Source: Verrucomicrobiota bacterium
GTDB taxonomy: Bacteria; Verrucomicrobiota; Verrucomicrobiia; JADLBR01
Direction of reading: 5' to 3'
DNA length: 64,000 nucleotides
Assembly (NCBI GenBank): GCA_029560585.1
Contig: JAKQKQ010000026.1
Location: 1-64,000 of the forward strand
Shown one piece after another: positions 28,941-36,946 of the stretch. The notes beneath the pieces are model-generated. The model saw only the letters and a program-made list of their open reading frames with translations, searched no databases and was not told the DNA's origin. The translations under genes were made by a program, and so were the position numbers. Every line of letters starts with the position of its first letter. Positions within the stretch are counted from its first letter, which is position 1.

Positions 28941-29336
28941 ATGCTGAACATCACCATCGAGAATGAGCCGAACGGGCGGGTTCGTGCCTGCCTGATCGGC
29001 CGCCTGGATACGGAGACCTATGGTCAATGCGAGGAGCGCTTGCGACCAGTTCTGTCGGGGGACGCGCGCGAGCTGGTGTTTGACTTGGCCCAGCTTGACT
29101 ATCTGAGCAGCATGGGGTTGCGGGTGTTGATGCAAACGACGAAGGCCCTTGCCCAGCGCGGCGGCAGGTGCGTCCTGACCCGGCTCCAGCCTCCGATTCG
29201 GGCGGTCATCGACATCGCAAACGCGCTGCCCCCAGAGACGATTTTTGCCAGCGTCGAAGAGGCCGATCGCTATCTGGACGTCATGCAGCGGCGGGCGAAG
29301 GAGGAGGCCGCGAAAAAAGCGAGGCGCTCCACGTAA
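28941..29336 (+). CDS. STAS-domain anti-sigma factor antagonist
   Basis: A 131-residue protein of SpoIIAA/RsbV type. It contains IGRLDTETYGQCEERL and the phosphorylation-site loop DYLSSMGLRVLM with candidate serines 56 and 57. Proteins of this kind bind a HATPase anti-sigma kinase and are switched off by serine phosphorylation. The gene for such a kinase lies tail-to-tail 27 bases away, so the two form a plausible partner-switching pair. The C-terminus is a Lys/Arg/Ala tail. The 277 bases upstream hold no gene that I can support. Confidence 0.88.
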   Translation: MLNITIENEPNGRVRACLIGRLDTETYGQCEERLRPVLSGDARELVFDLAQLDYLSSMGLRVLMQTTKALAQRGGRCVLTRLQPPIRAVIDIANALPPETIFASVEEADRYLDVMQRRAKEEAAKKARRST

Positions 29337-29363
29337 CGGGCGCGCGGTCGGGGGCGCCGTCGT

Positions 29364-29810
29364 TCAATCGCGGGGCACCAGGATGGACAGGCGGTTGATG
29401 CCGCTGATCCGTTCGTACTGGATGTCGGACGCGAACTGCCTCACCAGCGTGAGGCCGAGCCCACCGATTTTTCGTTCTTCGAGCGGCGCGTCCAGATCGG
29501 GTGCGGGCGCGTTCAGGGGGTTGAATTCCCGACCGTCGTCCTCGATCACGATCTTGACCCGCTTTGGCTGCACGGAGACGCACAGCTTGATCTCGTGGTC
29601 GCCCCGATCGTCATAAGCGTACTTGAGGACGTTGGTTCCGATCTCCTCGATGATGAGGTTGCACGCGTAGGCGGCCTGCCCGCCGAGCCCCTGAGCTTTG
29701 AGGAAGTCCATGGCGTCCGCGGTGACGCGGCAGAGGGCGGGCAGGTTGTTCTGGAAAACCCGCTCCCAGATTGGCGGGGCATCGTCTCTGGAGGATTCGC
29801 CCGGCTTCAT
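29364..29810 (-). CDS. RsbW/SpoIIAB-type HATPase (anti-sigma / serine kinase-like)
   Basis: A 148-residue GHKL-type ATPase. The N-box is IIEEIGTNVLKYAYDD (about 53-68), the G1 box IEDDGREFNP and the G2 box KIGGLGLTLVRQF. The ATG at 29810 is preceded by AGGGA; a longer open frame upstream is non-coding by composition. It converges on the STAS gene. The canonical role is to bind a sigma factor or other output and to phosphorylate a STAS antagonist. No sigma factor or PP2C phosphatase gene is in the neighbourhood, so the output is unknown; the adjacent STAS-fusion/ABC operon is a candidate. Confidence 0.88.
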   Translation of the reverse strand: MKPGESSRDDAPPIWERVFQNNLPALCRVTADAMDFLKAQGLGGQAAYACNLIIEEIGTNVLKYAYDDRGDHEIKLCVSVQPKRVKIVIEDDGREFNPLNAPAPDLDAPLEERKIGGLGLTLVRQFASDIQYERISGINRLSILVPRD

Positions 29811-30004
29811 AGGGTCCCTGGGGTCTACGTCGGTGAGCCTCCGGCGCGGTTGGAGAAGCCGCTTGCTCTTCCGGGCCGCGTGATTGAAAATCGGCTTTGC
29901 AACGCCCCGACTGTATGAGACATGCCGGGTACCCTCAATGGAAAAGCCTGCCGGGCGGTTGAGGTGCTCGAGTTGAAGTACCATAGAGCGCCAACACACA
30001 CGAG

Positions 30005-32950
30005 ATGATGGCCAACCTCCAGCGGCTGCTGATGTCCCTCGCGTTGCTCGGTGCGGCGGCAATGGTCTTGCTGCTCTCGGACCTCCATTCCCGAAAGGGT
30101 GCCCGCCGCCCACAGGCCGATCGGATGATCCCCGTCGCATTGGTCAAACACGCCTCGAACTCCTTGCTGGACGAGGTGGAGCAGGGTGTGATCGACGCCA
30201 TGGCCGAGCGTGGCTACCGCGATGGCGCGAAGATCTCTCTCCAGCGTTTCTCGGCCGACGGTGACGTGCCGACCAGCACCGTCATCGCGAAGCGCGTCAC
30301 CGACGGCAGCTTCCGACTGGTCGTGAGCATGAGCACGCTCTCCCTTCAGGCGGTGGCCAACGCGAATTCTGCCGGGCGCACCCCCCACGTCTTTGGCGCT
30401 GTCACAGATCCCTCGGCCTCGGGCGTCGGCATCCGGGCCATGGGCAGCACGAACAAGCCACCCTGGATGGCGGGGATCGGCACGTTTCAGCCGGTGGAGT
30501 CCATCTTCCGGATGGCCAGGGAATCCTGGCCTGGGCTCAAGGTTGTGGGCGTCGTCTGGAATCCGGCCGAGCGCAATTCGGAGATGTGCGTCCTGAAAGG
30601 AAGGCAGGTCTGCGCCGAATTCGGCATTCAGCTCGTCGAGGCCACCGTGGACCAGACCAAGGACGTCCGCGATGCCGCCGGCGCGCTGGTCGCCCGGGGC
30701 GCGCAGGGCTTCTGGACGGGTTTCGACCTCACCGTCTACGCCGCGATGTCCTCGCTCTGCGAGGTCGCCGCCCGCGCCGGCATCCCTGTTTTTTCGAATA
30801 ATACCGGTCACCTCAAGGAGGGCACGCTTTTCGAGCTCGGCGCGAACTATGGGGAGGTCGGCCGCCAGATCGGCAACATCGCCGCCGACGTCCTCGGCGG
30901 TGCCGATCCCGCGAAGATGGCCGTCGAAAATTTCATGCCGGAACGCGTCATGCTGAACCGGCAGGTGCTCGGGGCGCTCCGCGATCCGTGGAAGTTCACT
31001 GACGAGGCCGTCGCCCGCGCGGTGATGATCATCGGCGCCGATGGCTCCGTCGAAAAGGATGCCCAGGATGCGCGTGCCGGCCCTGCCTCGGCTGCGGCGC
31101 CGGCGCGCGATCACCCGCACAAGATCGCCATGGCGTATTTCGGGCCGGACGAGGGCACCGACTCGACCATCGCGGGCATGATGGACGGCCTGCGCGAGCG
31201 CGGTCTTGAGGAGGGGCGGGATTTCTCGGTTGTGAAGTTCCACGCCAACGGTGAGATCGGCGCCATCGCCCCCATCATGCACGCGATCGATTCCGGGGAT
31301 GCCGACGTCGTGGTGACCTTTTCGACTCCGGTCCTCACGGCGGCGTGCTCGGCGGTGAGGCGGAAGCCCGTGGTGTTCACCTACTGCACCGACCCGGTCG
31401 CCGCGGACGCGGGCAAGACCTTCGAGGATCACCTCCCGTTCGTGACCGGGATAGGGTCATTTCCCCCGATAGAGGATGCCGTCAAGATGATCACCCTGAC
31501 ATTTCCCAAGGCGCGGCGCATCGGGACGCTCTACAACACTGCGGAGGCCAACTCGGTGCGCGAGGTCGGCAGGCTGCGCGACCTCTGCGGTTCGCTCGGC
31601 CTTGAACTGGTGGAGGCGGCGGCCGGGAATACGGCCGAGGTTGTGCCGGCGGCCCAATCGCTTGTGGCGCGGGGTGTGGACGTCGCGTTTCTGCCCGGCG
31701 ACAACACGGCCTATCAGGCCTTCGAGGGAATTGCCAGTACGCTCGCGGCAGCGCGAGTGCCCCTGGTCATCGATGCCCCGGAATTCACCGATCGCGGCGC
31801 CCTGGCCGCCGTTGGGGTCGGATATTACAACACGGGTTTCGCCACGGCGGAACCGCTCGCGCGCGTGATGGCGGGCGAATCGCCCGCCAAAATACCTTTT
31901 CGGAATGTTGCCCAAAAGCAGGTTAAGCTGAATCTCAAGGTGGCGTCACATCTCGGCGTCAGGTTTCCGCCGGAAGTCATGGCCATGCGGACCGAGGGGG
32001 CGAAATCCTCGGCCACTGGGGCGAAACCGGTCCCCCGGCTGTGGCGCATCCACCAGTTGTACTATCTCGAATCGCCCCTCGTTGAGGACAGCACGCGGGG
32101 GTTCCGGGAGGGGCTGGTAGCCGCGGGCCTCCGGGAGGGCGCCGACTTCGCGCTCAAGACATTGAGCGCCCAGGGCGACATGACCGCCCTGGGGTCGTTG
32201 TTTGACTCGGCGCGCATCGCCGGCGTGGATCTCTTCGTGGTTTTTTCCACGCCGACGCTCCAGACGGCGGTCAAAAAGGTCAGGGACGTGCCGGTGTTAT
32301 TCACGGTGGTGGCTGACCCATTCTTGGCCGGCGCTGGCAGGACGAATGATGACCACCTGCCGAACATCACGGGCGTCTGCACGCAGGGCCCTTATGCCGA
32401 GATGGCGAAACTCCTCGTGAACCATTTCCCGCAGATCAAGCGGGTGGGAACACTGTTTTGCCCATCCGAGGCGAATTCGGTGGCCAACAGGGATCTCTTC
32501 GTTCGCGAGGCGGCGCGGCGGGGGATCAGGGTCGAAGCCGTGGCCGTGAATGCCGCGGCAGAATTGGCCGACGCCGCCCTTGCGCTGTGCGGGCGTGGAC
32601 CCGATGCGGTCGTTCAGGTAATCGATAATCTCACCGCCGCCGGATTTCCGGCCATCGCCCGTGCGGCGCGACAGGCGCGAATACCGATCTTCACTTTCCA
32701 GGATGCCACGATCGGGCAGGGCGCCAGCCTCGTGTTATCGCGGGACTACCGCGATGCGGGGGTGGACACCGCGGCGATGGCGGTGCGCATCATGCGCGGG
32801 GAGAGTCCGGCCACGATACCTTTTGCGCCGCCGCGCACCGTGCGGTTACTGATCCACACCGATAATGCCGCGGCGGTCGGCCTGCGCATCCCCGCGGCGC
32901 TTCTGGAGAAGGCGCAGAGGGTTTTGCCGGGGCCATCGAAGGGTTCGTGA
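30005..32950 (+). CDS. TrpX-like ABC transporter substrate-binding protein with three tandem binding modules
   Basis: A 981-residue protein with one N-terminal hydrophobic segment (about residues 8-25) that acts as anchor or signal. Three successive copies of the ABC_sub_bind (PF04392, TrpX-type) fold follow, at about 42-345, 371-660 and 678-975. Each has the same sequence of landmarks: a 'G.R.GL/Y.EG' start helix, 'V.FSTP.L..A' (VVTFSTPVLTAA; VVFSTPTLQTA), 'VTGIGSFPPIED' or its equivalent, and 'R.GTL.....EANSV'. TrpX relatives in other bacteria bind aromatic amino acids, usually as single-module proteins. The gene leads a tight operon with a STAS-fusion protein, a permease and an ATPase. What the three modules bind, and whether they work in transport or signalling, is open. 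Confidence 0.88.
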   Translation: MMANLQRLLMSLALLGAAAMVLLLSDLHSRKGARRPQADRMIPVALVKHASNSLLDEVEQGVIDAMAERGYRDGAKISLQRFSADGDVPTSTVIAKRVTDGSFRLVVSMSTLSLQAVANANSAGRTPHVFGAVTDPSASGVGIRAMGSTNKPPWMAGIGTFQPVESIFRMARESWPGLKVVGVVWNPAERNSEMCVLKGRQVCAEFGIQLVEATVDQTKDVRDAAGALVARGAQGFWTGFDLTVYAAMSSLCEVAARAGIPVFSNNTGHLKEGTLFELGANYGEVGRQIGNIAADVLGGADPAKMAVENFMPERVMLNRQVLGALRDPWKFTDEAVARAVMIIGADGSVEKDAQDARAGPASAAAPARDHPHKIAMAYFGPDEGTDSTIAGMMDGLRERGLEEGRDFSVVKFHANGEIGAIAPIMHAIDSGDADVVVTFSTPVLTAACSAVRRKPVVFTYCTDPVAADAGKTFEDHLPFVTGIGSFPPIEDAVKMITLTFPKARRIGTLYNTAEANSVREVGRLRDLCGSLGLELVEAAAGNTAEVVPAAQSLVARGVDVAFLPGDNTAYQAFEGIASTLAAARVPLVIDAPEFTDRGALAAVGVGYYNTGFATAEPLARVMAGESPAKIPFRNVAQKQVKLNLKVASHLGVRFPPEVMAMRTEGAKSSATGAKPVPRLWRIHQLYYLESPLVEDSTRGFREGLVAAGLREGADFALKTLSAQGDMTALGSLFDSARIAGVDLFVVFSTPTLQTAVKKVRDVPVLFTVVADPFLAGAGRTNDDHLPNITGVCTQGPYAEMAKLLVNHFPQIKRVGTLFCPSEANSVANRDLFVREAARRGIRVEAVAVNAAAELADAALALCGRGPDAVVQVIDNLTAAGFPAIARAARQARIPIFTFQDATIGQGASLVLSRDYRDAGVDTAAMAVRIMRGESPATIPFAPPRTVRLLIHTDNAAAVGLRIPAALLEKAQRVLPGPSKGS

Positions 32951-32954
32951 AGAC

Positions 32955-34202
32955 ATGGAGATAGAGCGACAGCCTGGTCCGGAGATGATGGTGCTCAGGC
33001 TCCATGGCCGGATGGACGCCGCGTGGAGCGGCCACGTCAGCAAAGCCATCGCCGAGTGCATTCAGGCCGGTCATCACGCCCTGGGGATCGATATGGCGGG
33101 CGTCGATTACATCAGCTCCGCCGGAATCCGTGTGCTGGTGCAGCACGCGCGCCAGCTCAAGGGCATCGATGGCCGTTTCTCCCTGTTGAACACGGGTGGC
33201 GAAGTCAGGCGCGTCTTGACGCTGGCGGGGCTTGACGCGCTCTTGGGTGTCGGCGGTGGGTTGGCGGTCGGCGGTGCTCGTTTGGGAAGGCCCCCCGGCG
33301 GCGCTGAGGCGACCGCGGTGTCCTTGGCGGGCGCGCGTGGGGAGATTCACCTGCTTGACGCAGGTTCGACGATGCGGGTGCGAGAACTGGGCGAGGCCGA
33401 GCGCTGGCTCAGGGGCGCCGGTGATCCGCAGGCATGTTCCCTTTGCGAATTTGGGCCGGACATGATCGGTTTGGGGCTCGGGGCGCTTGGTGCCGGCGAA
33501 CCGCGACTGGGGGAATTCCTCGCCGTGCCGGGTGCGGCCGTGTGCCAGTCAGCCGATGGTTCGAATCGGCCGGACTATGTACTTCGGCAGGGCTCGCTGG
33601 TGCCGAGCGTGAACGTGGCGTACGGCATCATTGGACAGGGCAGTTTTGGGCGACTCCTGCGGTTCGAGAAATGCCCCGACAGCAACGGCGTGTCCATGAG
33701 CGAGGTGGCTGGTGCGTGCCTGGCCGCGGTGGGCGGCCACGTCGCGGCCGTGGTGATGGTGGCCGAGACCGCTGGGCTGGTGGGGGCCGCGGTCCAGAGG
33801 TTGCCAGACGACGGGACGGCGATGGCTGCCGCCGATGGCATTTTCGCCTTCCCCCGCGTCCGCGAGTGGCTGAGCTTCACCTCGGAAACGGCTTTCGCGA
33901 AATGCGTGAGCCTGGCCGTCGGTTTCGTGGCCTCGGCGCGGGGGGCCGAACGGATGCGATTCCTGAAACCGATGTCGAGGGCGGTTGATCTGCAGGGGCA
34001 TTTTCATGCGGCGGCGTTCCCGTACCGCCCGATTCGGCGGGGCAAGCTGGACTTGGACGAGGCACTGTCGCCGCTGTTTGACAATGAGAACGTCCTCGGC
34101 CTGCTGCATTTGGTGAACGACTGGCGCATCCCCAGCGGCGTGGGCGAAAGCTCTTTCCTGCGGGGTGCCTGCTGGTGTGCGCCCGTGGAGGATCGGCCAT
34201 GA
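32955..34202 (+). CDS. STAS-domain protein with a C-terminal domain of unknown function, embedded in an ABC operon
   Basis: A 415-residue cytosolic protein. Residues ~1-100 form a STAS domain (LRLHGRMDAAWSGHVSKAI, loop DYISSAGIRVLVQHARQL with Ser54/Ser55). A Gly-rich linker follows. The remaining ~300 residues do not match a family I know: GEIHLLDAGSTMRVREL, CSLCEFGPDMIGLGLGALGAGEPRLGEFL, NVAYGIIGQGSFGRLLRFEK, and a C-terminal LFDNENVLGLLHLVNDWRIP. It starts 4 bases after the binding-protein stop, and its own stop overlaps the permease ATG (ATGA). That position suggests it regulates, or is part of, the transporter, as the STAS protein MlaB does in the unrelated Mla system. It could also be a target of the nearby HATPase. 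Confidence 0.75.
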   Translation: MEIERQPGPEMMVLRLHGRMDAAWSGHVSKAIAECIQAGHHALGIDMAGVDYISSAGIRVLVQHARQLKGIDGRFSLLNTGGEVRRVLTLAGLDALLGVGGGLAVGGARLGRPPGGAEATAVSLAGARGEIHLLDAGSTMRVRELGEAERWLRGAGDPQACSLCEFGPDMIGLGLGALGAGEPRLGEFLAVPGAAVCQSADGSNRPDYVLRQGSLVPSVNVAYGIIGQGSFGRLLRFEKCPDSNGVSMSEVAGACLAAVGGHVAAVVMVAETAGLVGAAVQRLPDDGTAMAAADGIFAFPRVREWLSFTSETAFAKCVSLAVGFVASARGAERMRFLKPMSRAVDLQGHFHAAAFPYRPIRRGKLDLDEALSPLFDNENVLGLLHLVNDWRIPSGVGESSFLRGACWCAPVEDRP

Positions 34203-35140
34203 CACTGATGCTCGGTGCGCTCACGATCGGCCTCATCCTCTCGCTCTTGGCGATGGGGATTTTCATCAGCTTCCGCGTCTTCGAGATAGCCGATATCACG
34301 GTGGATGGCTCCATCACCCTGGGCGCGGCCTTGTGCGCCGTCCTGCTGGTGCGCGGCGTGAATCCGGCGCTGGCCATGGCCGCAAGTTTTCTCGCCGGCA
34401 CTGTCGCCGGCACGATCACCGGAGTCCTCCAGGCCCGATTCAAGATCAATCCGCTGCTCTCTGGCATCCTCGTCATGACGGCCCTCTATTCGGTGAACCT
34501 CCACATCATGGGGCGCAGCAACATTCCCCTCCTCACCGCAGAGAACGTGACCACCTGGGCCGACCGGTGGTCGCAGGCGTTGCTTGGTGTCGCGGACGTG
34601 AACGTGTTTGGCTGGATGGTCGCGGGGCGGGACCTCGGCATCCTTGCGCTGGTGCTTGGCATTGTGACGATGGTGGGCGTCGCGCTGTACGGGTTTCTGC
34701 GCACCGAGGTGGGCACGGCCATGCGGGCGGCGGGCGACAACCCGCAGATGATCAGGGCGCTGGGCGTCGATGTGGAATCCTATCGCATCCTCGGCCTGGC
34801 CCTGTCGAACGGGCTGGTTGCCTGGTCGGGGGCGCTGCTCGCGCAGTATCAGGGGTTCGCCGACGCGCAGATGGGCATCGGGATGGTCGTGTGGGGGCTG
34901 GCCAGCGTGATCATCGGCGAATCACTCACGGGTTCCCGGAGCCTTGGCCTCGCGATCTATGGGGCCATCGCGGGATCGGTCCTTTTCCGCCTTCTGGTGG
35001 CCATGGCTCTCCGCTGGGGGCTTAATCCCAACGACCTGAAGATCGTCACGGCCCTCTTCGTGTTTGGCGCGCTGGTGCTGCCCACGTGGGTGGGCACGTG
35101 GCGACGAAATCGCACGATCGCGGAGACTGCGAAACCTTAG
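34199..35140 (+). CDS. ABC transporter permease, TrpY/BPD_transp_2-like
   Basis: A 313-residue inner-membrane protein with eight to ten hydrophobic segments. Motifs are FEIADITVDGSITLGAAL, FKINPLLSGILVMTALY, RAAGDNPQMIRALGVD and GLASVIIGESL, which fit the PF02653 permeases that pair with TrpX-type binding proteins. GGAGGA lies 7 bases before the ATG, which overlaps the stop of the STAS-fusion gene, so the two are coupled. The ATPase gene follows after 13 bases. Confidence 0.9.
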   Translation: MTLMLGALTIGLILSLLAMGIFISFRVFEIADITVDGSITLGAALCAVLLVRGVNPALAMAASFLAGTVAGTITGVLQARFKINPLLSGILVMTALYSVNLHIMGRSNIPLLTAENVTTWADRWSQALLGVADVNVFGWMVAGRDLGILALVLGIVTMVGVALYGFLRTEVGTAMRAAGDNPQMIRALGVDVESYRILGLALSNGLVAWSGALLAQYQGFADAQMGIGMVVWGLASVIIGESLTGSRSLGLAIYGAIAGSVLFRLLVAMALRWGLNPNDLKIVTALFVFGALVLPTWVGTWRRNRTIAETAKP

Positions 35141-35153
35141 AACCAGGCGCCCC

Positions 35154-35966
35154 ATGCTCACCATCCGGGACATTCACAAGACGTTCAATGCGGGGACCGT
35201 CAATGAGGTCCGTGCCCTCCAGGGCGTCAGCCTCCATGTGCCCGAGGGCGGCTTCGTCGTCGTCCTCGGCGGAAACGGTTCGGGCAAGTCCACGCTCCAA
35301 AATGCCGTCGCGGGCAGCTTTTTCGTAGACGGGGGCTCGATCCAGATAGCGGGGGAGGACGTCACCCGCTGGCCGGAGCACCGGAGGGCGCGCCTCATCG
35401 GGCGCGTTTTTCAGAACCCATTCAGCGGCACGGCACCGACCATGTCGATCGCCGAGAACTTCGCCCTCGCGACACGCCGGGGGCGCCGCCGCAGAATCCG
35501 TTGGGCGATTTCGCGATCGGTGCGCGATGAGTTGCGCGAGCGAGTGCGGGGTCTGAGAATGGGTTTGGAAGACCGCCTGGACAGCGCTATCGGTAGCCTA
35601 TCGGGCGGCCAGCGTCAGGCGCTGACCCTCCTGATGGCAACATGGCTGAAACCGGCACTGCTGCTGCTGGACGAACACACGGCCGCGCTGGACCCCAAGA
35701 GCGCCGAGCAGGTTATCCGATTGACCGGCGAGATCGTCGGCGGCCTCGGCCTGACGACGGTCATGGTGACCCACTCGATGCAACAGGCCGTCAACCTCGG
35801 CGACCGCGTGGTGATGATGCACAAGGGTCGGATCGCCTACAGCTTCTCGGGGGCCGAGAAACAGCGGCTGCGGGTGGACGACCTGCTCGGCCGATTTGAG
35901 GAACTGCGGCGGAGGGAGATGCTGGACGAGAGCACCGCCGCACTGTTGCGGGAAAGCTACGTTTGA
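35154..35966 (+). CDS. ABC transporter ATP-binding protein, TrpZ-like
   Basis: A 270-residue ATPase with Walker A GGNGSGKST (39-47), signature LSGGQRQ, Walker B ALLLLDEH and the switch histidine in VMVTHSM. It belongs with the permease and triple-module binding protein upstream and completes a TrpXYZ-like set. Its start at 35154 lies 13 bases after the permease stop, inside a longer open frame whose extra N-terminus is the permease gene read in another frame. Confidence 0.92.
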   Translation: MLTIRDIHKTFNAGTVNEVRALQGVSLHVPEGGFVVVLGGNGSGKSTLQNAVAGSFFVDGGSIQIAGEDVTRWPEHRRARLIGRVFQNPFSGTAPTMSIAENFALATRRGRRRRIRWAISRSVRDELRERVRGLRMGLEDRLDSAIGSLSGGQRQALTLLMATWLKPALLLLDEHTAALDPKSAEQVIRLTGEIVGGLGLTTVMVTHSMQQAVNLGDRVVMMHKGRIAYSFSGAEKQRLRVDDLLGRFEELRRREMLDESTAALLRESYV

Positions 35967-36025: not shown

Positions 36026-36946
36026 GTGCTCCGCAAGCTGGACATTGTTGGCAATCGCCTGACCGAGACGGAGGCCGATGACGCCCGGGTCCTCCTGTAC
36101 ATCGCGCCGACGGAGGAGGAGACGCGGCACCTCGTCTCGGAATGCCGCATCGATGCCCACACGCTGGCTTCCGCGCTGGACCCCGACGAGCTGGGTCGCC
36201 TGGAGTTCGAGCCGGACCACGCCGCCATCATCGTCAAGCGCCCCAAGCAATACTCTTCGGAGGACAACTTCCTATTCAAGATCACGTCGGTCGGCGTGTT
36301 CCTCTTTCGGGAGAAGCTGATCCTCGTCGTCGCGGAGGACACCCTGCGATTCGAGGGCAAACAATTCCAGAATGTCCGCTCGCTGACCGACATCATCCTC
36401 AAGATGATCTTCCGCTGCATCCATCACTTCGAGGAGCACCTGCGGGTGTTCAGCATGATCTCGGACGAGCTGGAGAGGAAGATCAACACGGCGATGGAGA
36501 ACCGCCACCTGCTCAACATGTTTACCCTGGGCAAGAGCCTGGTGTATTACCTAAACGCCATCAGCTCGAACGGGCGCGTGATGGACAAGATCAAGACGAA
36601 TGCCCAGAGGCTCGGGCTCACGCCCGAGGACGTCGAATTCCTCGATGACGTTCTGATCGAGAACAACCAGTGCCGAGAGTTGGCCAACACCTATTCGCAG
36701 GTGCTCTCTAGCCTCATGGACGCCCGCGTGTCCGTCGTGAGCAACAATCTCAACGTGCTGATGAAGGCGCTGACGCTGGTGATGATCTCGATCATGATGC
36801 CGACGCTCGTCATCAGCGTTTTCTCCATGAACGTAAAGCTGCCCATGGATCAGGAGGGCAGCATGATCCCATTCTGGTTCATCGTGGCCCTTGCGACGGC
36901 GTCGGGGGCTGCCGTGCTCCTCCTCTGGAAGCACAAGAGGCTGTGA
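36026..36946 (+). CDS. corA: CorA-family divalent metal ion transporter
   Basis: A 306-residue protein with a long soluble N-terminal region and two C-terminal membrane helices (ALTLVMISIMMPTLVISVF and FWFIVALATASGAAVLLL). The loop between them reads FSMNVKLPMDQEGS: the family's GMN signature appears here as SMN. Long helices before the membrane (HFEEHLRVFSMISDELERKIN) form the usual CorA stalk. It starts with GTG behind AGAAGG. It likely moves Mg2+ or another divalent metal; the altered signature makes selectivity uncertain. Confidence 0.85.
   Translation: MLRKLDIVGNRLTETEADDARVLLYIAPTEEETRHLVSECRIDAHTLASALDPDELGRLEFEPDHAAIIVKRPKQYSSEDNFLFKITSVGVFLFREKLILVVAEDTLRFEGKQFQNVRSLTDIILKMIFRCIHHFEEHLRVFSMISDELERKINTAMENRHLLNMFTLGKSLVYYLNAISSNGRVMDKIKTNAQRLGLTPEDVEFLDDVLIENNQCRELANTYSQVLSSLMDARVSVVSNNLNVLMKALTLVMISIMMPTLVISVFSMNVKLPMDQEGSMIPFWFIVALATASGAAVLLLWKHKRL

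Follow-up and report, generated by a model that had tools for sequence, protein, structure and literature searches.

Gene organization of the locus

We analysed a window of 64,000 nucleotides from a Verrucomicrobiota bacterium (GenBank assembly GCA_029560585.1, contig JAKQKQ010000026.1, positions 1 to 64,000). Between positions 28,941 and 35,966, this window encodes a STAS antagonist and a SpoIIAB-like HATPase, followed by an ATP-binding cassette (ABC) importer operon that contains a gene for a STAS-fusion protein, here called SFUS. An initial annotation had described a converging STAS/HATPase pair and, about 200 bases away, an operon ordered triple substrate-binding protein, STAS-fusion, permease and ATPase. 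Gene coordinates and Pfam confirm both arrangements, and sequence and Pfam place every gene named in that annotation where it had been put. The features are as follows.

28941-29336, plus strand: STAS1, a stand-alone STAS antagonist (Pfam PF01740, 7e-16)
29364-~29810, minus strand: RsbW/SpoIIAB-like HATPase, a putative serine kinase (PF13581, HATPase_c_2, 3.9e-20)
29811-30004: divergent intergenic region of ~195 bp between the HATPase gene and the operon, delimited by gene coordinates and likely to hold promoters
30005-32950, plus strand: triple TrpX-like substrate-binding protein (SBP), 981 amino acids (PF04392, ABC_sub_bind, three stretches, 3e-133)
32955-34202, plus strand: STAS-fusion protein SFUS, 415 amino acids (66-sequence alignment; AlphaFold2 pLDDT 92, pTM 0.90)
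32961-33242, plus strand: STAS domain of SFUS (PF01740, 3.9e-16), with the Ser55 codon at 33117-33119
33318-34199, plus strand: C-terminal domain of SFUS, predicted acetolactate-decarboxylase/PTD012 fold (AlphaFold2, Foldseek, hhalign and residue invariance)
33513-33515, 33999-34001, 34005-34007 and 34107-34109, plus strand: codons of the invariant SFUS site residues E187, H349, H351 and H385, respectively
34199-35140, plus strand: permease, BPD_transp_2 (Pfam, 1.5e-28)
35154-35966, plus strand: ABC ATPase (ABC_tran, PF00005, 1.4e-26)

The STAS1 and HATPase genes converge, their 3' ends lying 27 bp apart, and the HATPase gene, whose start codon was inferred from homologues, is transcribed divergently from the ABC operon. 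Within the operon, 4 bp separate the SBP and SFUS genes, and SFUS and the permease share an ATGA overlap. The ABC_sub_bind SBP, the BPD_transp_2 permease and the ABC ATPase together make up a TrpXYZ-type set in one operon, and the ATPase reads as intact at Walker A, the LSGGQ signature and Walker B.

SFUS is conserved together with the importer

Relatives of SFUS were sought in relatives of the window genome and additionally in 384 genomes of the class and 388 of the phylum. A scan of genome contigs with the single SFUS sequence returned no matches; an alignment-based search did recover relatives. In all, SFUS has ~75 relatives in about seven phyla, and a cultured marine bacterium, Cerasicoccus frondis NBRC 105381 (L127), is among the carriers of the core operon. 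Hosts belong to Verrucomicrobiota, Planctomycetota, Bacteroidota, Lentisphaerota (Victivallales), Acidobacteriota, Elusimicrobiota and Synergistota, where individual phylum labels may be wrong as most of these genomes are metagenome-assembled.

The importer travels with SFUS almost without exception. Across the 75 loci surveyed, the permease gene lies directly 3' of SFUS in 60 of the 62 loci that reach far enough, the ATPase is in place in 51 of 53, and an SBP gene adjoins SFUS in 61 of 71, with contig ends behind most of the misses. The relationship also holds in reverse: permeases of the same type numbered 21 across 369 class genomes, and SFUS stands beside 20 of them. The association of STAS-fusion homologues with TrpXYZ-like genes, on which the initial annotation had staked its proposal, is thus borne out elsewhere. 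Because it recurs across phyla, the arrangement is a conserved system and more than a chance neighbourhood. At one locus, a second, longer SFUS-like gene (L110:4649-6295, minus strand; STAS at amino acids 119-217) is divergent from the SFUS operon.

By sequence kinship only, the nearest solved relatives of the SBP are 3lkv, 6hni and 3lft, of which 6hni is CD0873, associated with Tyr (PMC6816091). The SBP carries an N-terminal membrane anchor and no lipobox, and this anchor is conserved in relatives. In the SBPs of loci L094-L165 and in the window (30005-30100), it mostly follows the pattern RLxLGxxLIxxAxxxLLxSDxxSR without a lipobox, unlike the lipoprotein CD0873. The number of ligand domains in SBPs at SFUS loci ranges from one to three. 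The C-terminal tail of the ATPase, considered as a putative MlaF-like dock for STAS, is conserved among the SFUS-linked ATPases to which this comparison was confined.

STAS serines are invariant and switch genes cluster with SFUS

We next consider the STAS domains. Alignment to SpoIIAA places its Ser58 at Ser55 of SFUS and at Ser57 of STAS1 (codon 29109-29111). Both S54 and S55 are present in 66/66 fusions, and the Ser57 equivalent is invariant in all 25 stand-alone STAS proteins, so the STAS loops do carry conserved serines. The annotation's pointer to Ser54/55 is refined to Ser55 for SFUS and Ser57 for STAS1. Because importer adjacency is nearly universal and these serines are invariant, the suggested tie between phospho-switching and the transporter is well supported as a link by conserved context; phosphorylation and control themselves are predictions.

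Genes for a switch recur nearby. At 33 loci with long flanks, we found a HATPase gene in 17, a SpoIIE phosphatase gene in 9, an extra STAS gene in 14 and any of these in 18. Some loci unite the entire set in contiguous runs, as in PP2C-HATPase-STAS-SBP-SFUS-permease-ATPase (L120) and, in a Bacteroidota locus, PP2C-HATPase-STAS-SFUS-permease-ATPase (L148). HATPases of the RsbW-like kind are scarce (mean 2.7 per genome), and 10 of 28 whole genomes have one within 15 kb of SFUS against 0.46 expected (Poisson P ~8e-11, a guide only, as the 28 genomes are related). The window genome encodes no stand-alone RsbW-like protein other than this HATPase; its second strong RsbW-like protein is a fusion to SpoIIE. 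In the window HATPase the N, G1 and G2 boxes are intact, with E56, E57, N61, D92 and G117-G120 invariant in 21 homologues. On the SFUS tree, loci with switch linkage turn up on several well-supported branches (16 changes versus a shuffled mean of 21). Switch genes, probably SpoIIE phosphatases included, belong to the set.

That the partner-switching pair and the ABC operon are neighbours by accident is scarcely credible. The window pair does sit across a divergent, probable promoter region, and STAS1 is placed elsewhere than in relatives: its orthologue, 70% identical, is the last gene of the ABC operon in loci L031-L033. Against this stand the recurrence across phyla and the P value for the HATPase alone.

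A further possibility is a structural role for the STAS half, which would be bound constitutively to the ABC ATPase, as in MlaB, with no phosphorylation involved and with the switch genes serving other clients. An ABC transporter does have MlaB as its STAS subunit (PMC7367683), the fold matches of the SFUS STAS half include MlaFB structures, and many loci have no kinase gene nearby. Yet the best Foldseek match of this half is SpoIIAA in its SpoIIAB complex (TM 0.77), NCBIfam ant_ant_sig matches 6/6 sequences (2.4e-16) and mlaB_1 reaches merely E 0.11 in 2/6. The domain falls outside the MlaB family and is closer to SpoIIAA/RsbV. With the phospho-acceptor serine invariant, kinase linkage far above chance, and a related subfamily that can have a kinase gene without a transporter (see below), we consider this explanation improbable.

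Neighbour clustering identified the ATPase, HATPase/STAS, PP2C with hybrid kinases and an acetolactate-synthase-like enzyme as the meaningful recurrent partners. No sigma factor gene is among the recurrent neighbours in this clustering, and a target may be encoded elsewhere. The linked phosphatases bear receiver, Cache-HAMP or cyclic-nucleotide input domains. This context bears on whether SFUS reads out transport rather than controlling it. The anchored SBP and transporter would sense, import status would alter SFUS so that it binds or frees the HATPase, and the freed HATPase would act on another target, for example a sigma factor or a two-component output, leaving transport unregulated. Such a scheme fits the tethered SBPs, often with two or three ligand domains, the frequent neighbouring hybrid histidine kinases with receiver domains and receiver- or Cache-SpoIIE phosphatases, and the kinase sequestration by which partner switching classically runs. 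But none of the recurrent neighbours is a sigma or other output gene, permease and ATPase alike appear to be fully active, and the scheme has no need of an enzyme-like domain. We regard it as rather unlikely.

Predicted fold of the SFUS C-terminal domain

The initial annotation had called for a search on the 'unknown domain' that follows STAS. Pfam, NCBIfam and PDB sequence searches returned STAS only, and the hidden Markov model of the acetolactate decarboxylase (ALDC) family, PF03306, had zero matches in 66 SFUS members up to E 10. Structure prediction was more informative. AlphaFold2 modelled the domain alone with pLDDT 92.5 and pTM 0.92, and the 12 best Foldseek matches to this model in the PDB were PTD012 and ALDC (E 4e-5 to 3e-3, TMt 0.44-0.61). 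The next match followed at E 0.06, and PPC/DUF296 proteins, which we take to belong to the same fold group, were weaker. A PP2C-like fold, considered at one stage, was dropped after Foldseek; a viral fold library gave nothing useful. Using hhalign, we compared SFUS with an ALDC profile built from the family gathered in this analysis, which scored 34.6 versus 11-19 for shuffled, reversed and unrelated controls. The alignment pairs GLGAxG...GEFLAxxGxxxxQxxDG of SFUS with GIGTFxxLDGEMxxLDGxxYQxxxDG of ALDC; forced to full length, hhalign gave no reliable register placing the three histidines on ALDC.

Residue conservation points to a site. E187, D207, H349, H351 and H385 are invariant in 66 SFUS and also in remote SFUS2 proteins (~20% identity). 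The canonical ALDC/PTD012 metal site consists of an HxH motif, a third histidine 11-12 residues on, and a glutamate. In SFUS, H349-x-H351 is similar to the fold's metal motif, and H385, 34 residues on, is the only other invariant histidine. Taken together, these models make it very likely that the C-terminal domain shares the ALDC/PTD012 fold. It is probably an enzyme fold with a metal site, and we avoid the label acetolactate decarboxylase because the third histidine is not at its usual place. Whether such a domain would still be catalytically active is somewhat doubtful. No stand-alone C-terminal domain was found, 24/24 matches lying in open reading frames long enough to include STAS.

SFUS2 and acetolactate-synthase-like neighbours

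A second subfamily, SFUS2 (L057-L063, L188-L198), has the same two domains as SFUS and no transporter. Several SFUS2 genes have SpoIIE and HATPase genes beside them, in several cases in one operon and near hybrid histidine kinases and response regulators; some of these runs read PP2C-HATPase-SFUS2. Other SFUS2 genes have neither partner. This context suggests that what unites the family is the switch, and that the importer is a partner particular to the SFUS branch. SFUS2-type fusions of STAS with the ALDC fold also occur at L077-L080.

In four SFUS loci, an acetolactate-synthase-like gene lies in the operon of the HATPase/STAS genes.

L094:4114-5829, minus strand: acetolactate-synthase-like gene
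L105:3468-5183, minus strand: acetolactate-synthase-like gene
L096:13982-15754, minus strand: acetolactate-synthase-like gene
L102:226-1974, minus strand: acetolactate-synthase-like gene

The L096 and L102 genes pass the NCBIfam AlsS cut-off (756 versus 510 bits). Most such genomes carry one to three acetolactate-synthase-like enzymes, and the copy in the window genome lies elsewhere. Because an acetolactate-synthase-like gene accompanies an ALDC-fold domain in the neighbouring operon, these loci, thin as their numbers are, hint at keto-acid or acetolactate chemistry. By match coordinates only, a HATPase-STAS-acetolactate-synthase-like run also occurs at G047:C15:36836-39477, on a contig other than that of the same genome's SFUS operon. 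In the window itself, a CorA-type magnesium transporter gene (36026-36946) begins 59 bp 3' of the ATPase gene and does not recur at other loci.

These neighbours could mean that the operon is chiefly metabolic, SFUS being mainly a decarboxylase-like enzyme that its STAS half controls or oligomerises and the transporter merely supplying substrate. The fold with its invariant glutamate and three histidines would suit this account, as would the acetolactate-synthase-like neighbours, and both activities reported for the ALDC/PTD012 fold are keto-acid decarboxylations (PMC12435205). However, the canonical histidine spacing is lost, the domain was not found without STAS in the matches described above, and where SFUS2 shows a link, its partners are switch genes and not metabolic genes. 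We regard a chiefly metabolic operon as rather unlikely.

A proposed switch mechanism

Our proposal builds on gene order, conservation, the predicted fold, the invariant serine and site residues, and the linkage of kinase and phosphatase genes; from these we infer phosphorylation, a metal, a ligand, catalytic activity, and that SFUS docks onto the ATPase or the permease. The HATPase would be a serine kinase acting on Ser55 of SFUS, Ser57 of STAS1 or both, and a SpoIIE-type phosphatase, adjacent in relatives and encoded elsewhere in the window genome, would undo the phosphorylation. STAS1 may vie with SFUS for the kinase. The ALDC-fold domain, with its probable metal site of E187, H349, H351 and H385, would sense or convert a 2-oxo/beta-keto-type metabolite related to the cargo of the TrpX-like importer. 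The STAS half would couple this metabolite domain to the kinase and, probably, the transporter as well.

In our best reading, SFUS is a phosphorylation-switched output or sensor protein with a metal site, tied to the importer substrate. The parts of this reading differ in strength, and our grading of the switch role, fold, gating and catalysis is a judgement and was not computed. SFUS probably has a switch role. That the whole locus is a phosphorylation-switched importer module with SFUS as output seems to us an evenly balanced proposition. Direct gating of the transporter by SFUS is conceivable, and we incline slightly against it. The fullest version, in which kinase and phosphatase toggle a keto-acid-measuring or -removing SFUS whose phospho-state gates the ABC importer directly, is rather unlikely as a whole; if true, it would be a new class of post-translational transport control and would amount to phospho-switching of an ABC transporter through a metabolite-handling adaptor. 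More broadly, the arrangement, which many little-studied bacteria carry around an amino-acid-type importer, points to protein phosphorylation as a means of setting nutrient uptake or processing, in a form for which we know of no earlier description.

Several observations weigh against a switched importer module. Switch genes are missing from the surroundings of about half of the long-flank loci, among them a planctomycete clade of 13 rows in which the core operon stands alone. No phosphatase gene adjoins the window module, the genome's 6 SpoIIE matches lying elsewhere. On the side of the metabolite domain, the hhalign probability is just 37%, so kinship with ALDC may go no further than likeness of fold; the third histidine does not have the canonical ALDC/PTD012 spacing, which may mean that catalysis is lost; and the acetolactate synthase link appears in four loci only, two of them from one genus. 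Finally, one SFUS (G379) has no transporter, and genome G155 (L258) retains SBP-permease-ATPase without SFUS. The latter locus (G155:C17) represents a natural loss or a pre-gain state; G164, a sister genome of the same family, has SFUS.

Comparison with known systems

The literature searched, in which few subscription papers were covered, holds no description of an SFUS system, in keeping with the initial annotation's remark that it knew of no described system with such an arrangement. Its parts do have relatives. The SBP family and the permease and ATPase types are those of TrpXYZ/CD0873-type importers, which differ in that the SFUS-associated SBP is membrane-anchored with one to three ligand domains and the SFUS gene lies within the operon. 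The SFUS system gives a regulatory context to Verrucomicrobiota and Planctomycetota importer operons otherwise annotated as plain ABC transporters. With AlsD/BudA (PF03306) and PTD012/C11orf54 (DUF1907), the C-terminal domain shares the fold, the HxH motif and a GIGxF..GE stretch aligned with GLGAxG..GE of SFUS. Unlike these proteins, it is below Pfam detection, at ~10% identity, with the third histidine off its spacing, and it is found only fused to STAS.

As in RsbU/RsbV/RsbW and SpoIIE/SpoIIAA/SpoIIAB of Bacillus, a STAS protein with a phospho-serine loop and a GHKL HATPase kinase can be encoded together, at some loci with a PP2C phosphatase. In contrast to the Bacillus switches, no sigma factor gene is among the recurrent neighbours; the STAS protein SFUS also carries an enzyme-fold domain, and its gene is part of an ABC importer operon. 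Partner switching beyond sigma factors is known from SypA/SypE of Vibrio fischeri and others (reviewed in PMC8256260). SypA/SypE likewise has an output other than an anti-sigma factor, but that output is biofilm control via an unknown target, with no transporter and no fused domain. With SFUS, the outputs that partner switching may have come to include a STAS protein joined to a decarboxylase-type fold.

MlaB of MlaFEDB, which acts on its ABC transporter, resembles SFUS in being a STAS protein encoded with such a transporter. It has a conserved Ser/Thr at the same loop, and its phospho-regulation has been posed as an open question (PMC7367683). Because the SFUS operon often has genes for the likely kinase and phosphatase as neighbours, this question of phosphorylation in STAS-ABC pairs becomes directly testable in a widespread operon. 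The two nonetheless differ: Mla is an MCE lipid system and MlaB a bare STAS domain, whereas the SFUS locus has a TrpXYZ-like importer, a second domain and, often, kinase and phosphatase genes alongside. Neither SypA-type switches nor MlaB have this importer, fusion or gene set.

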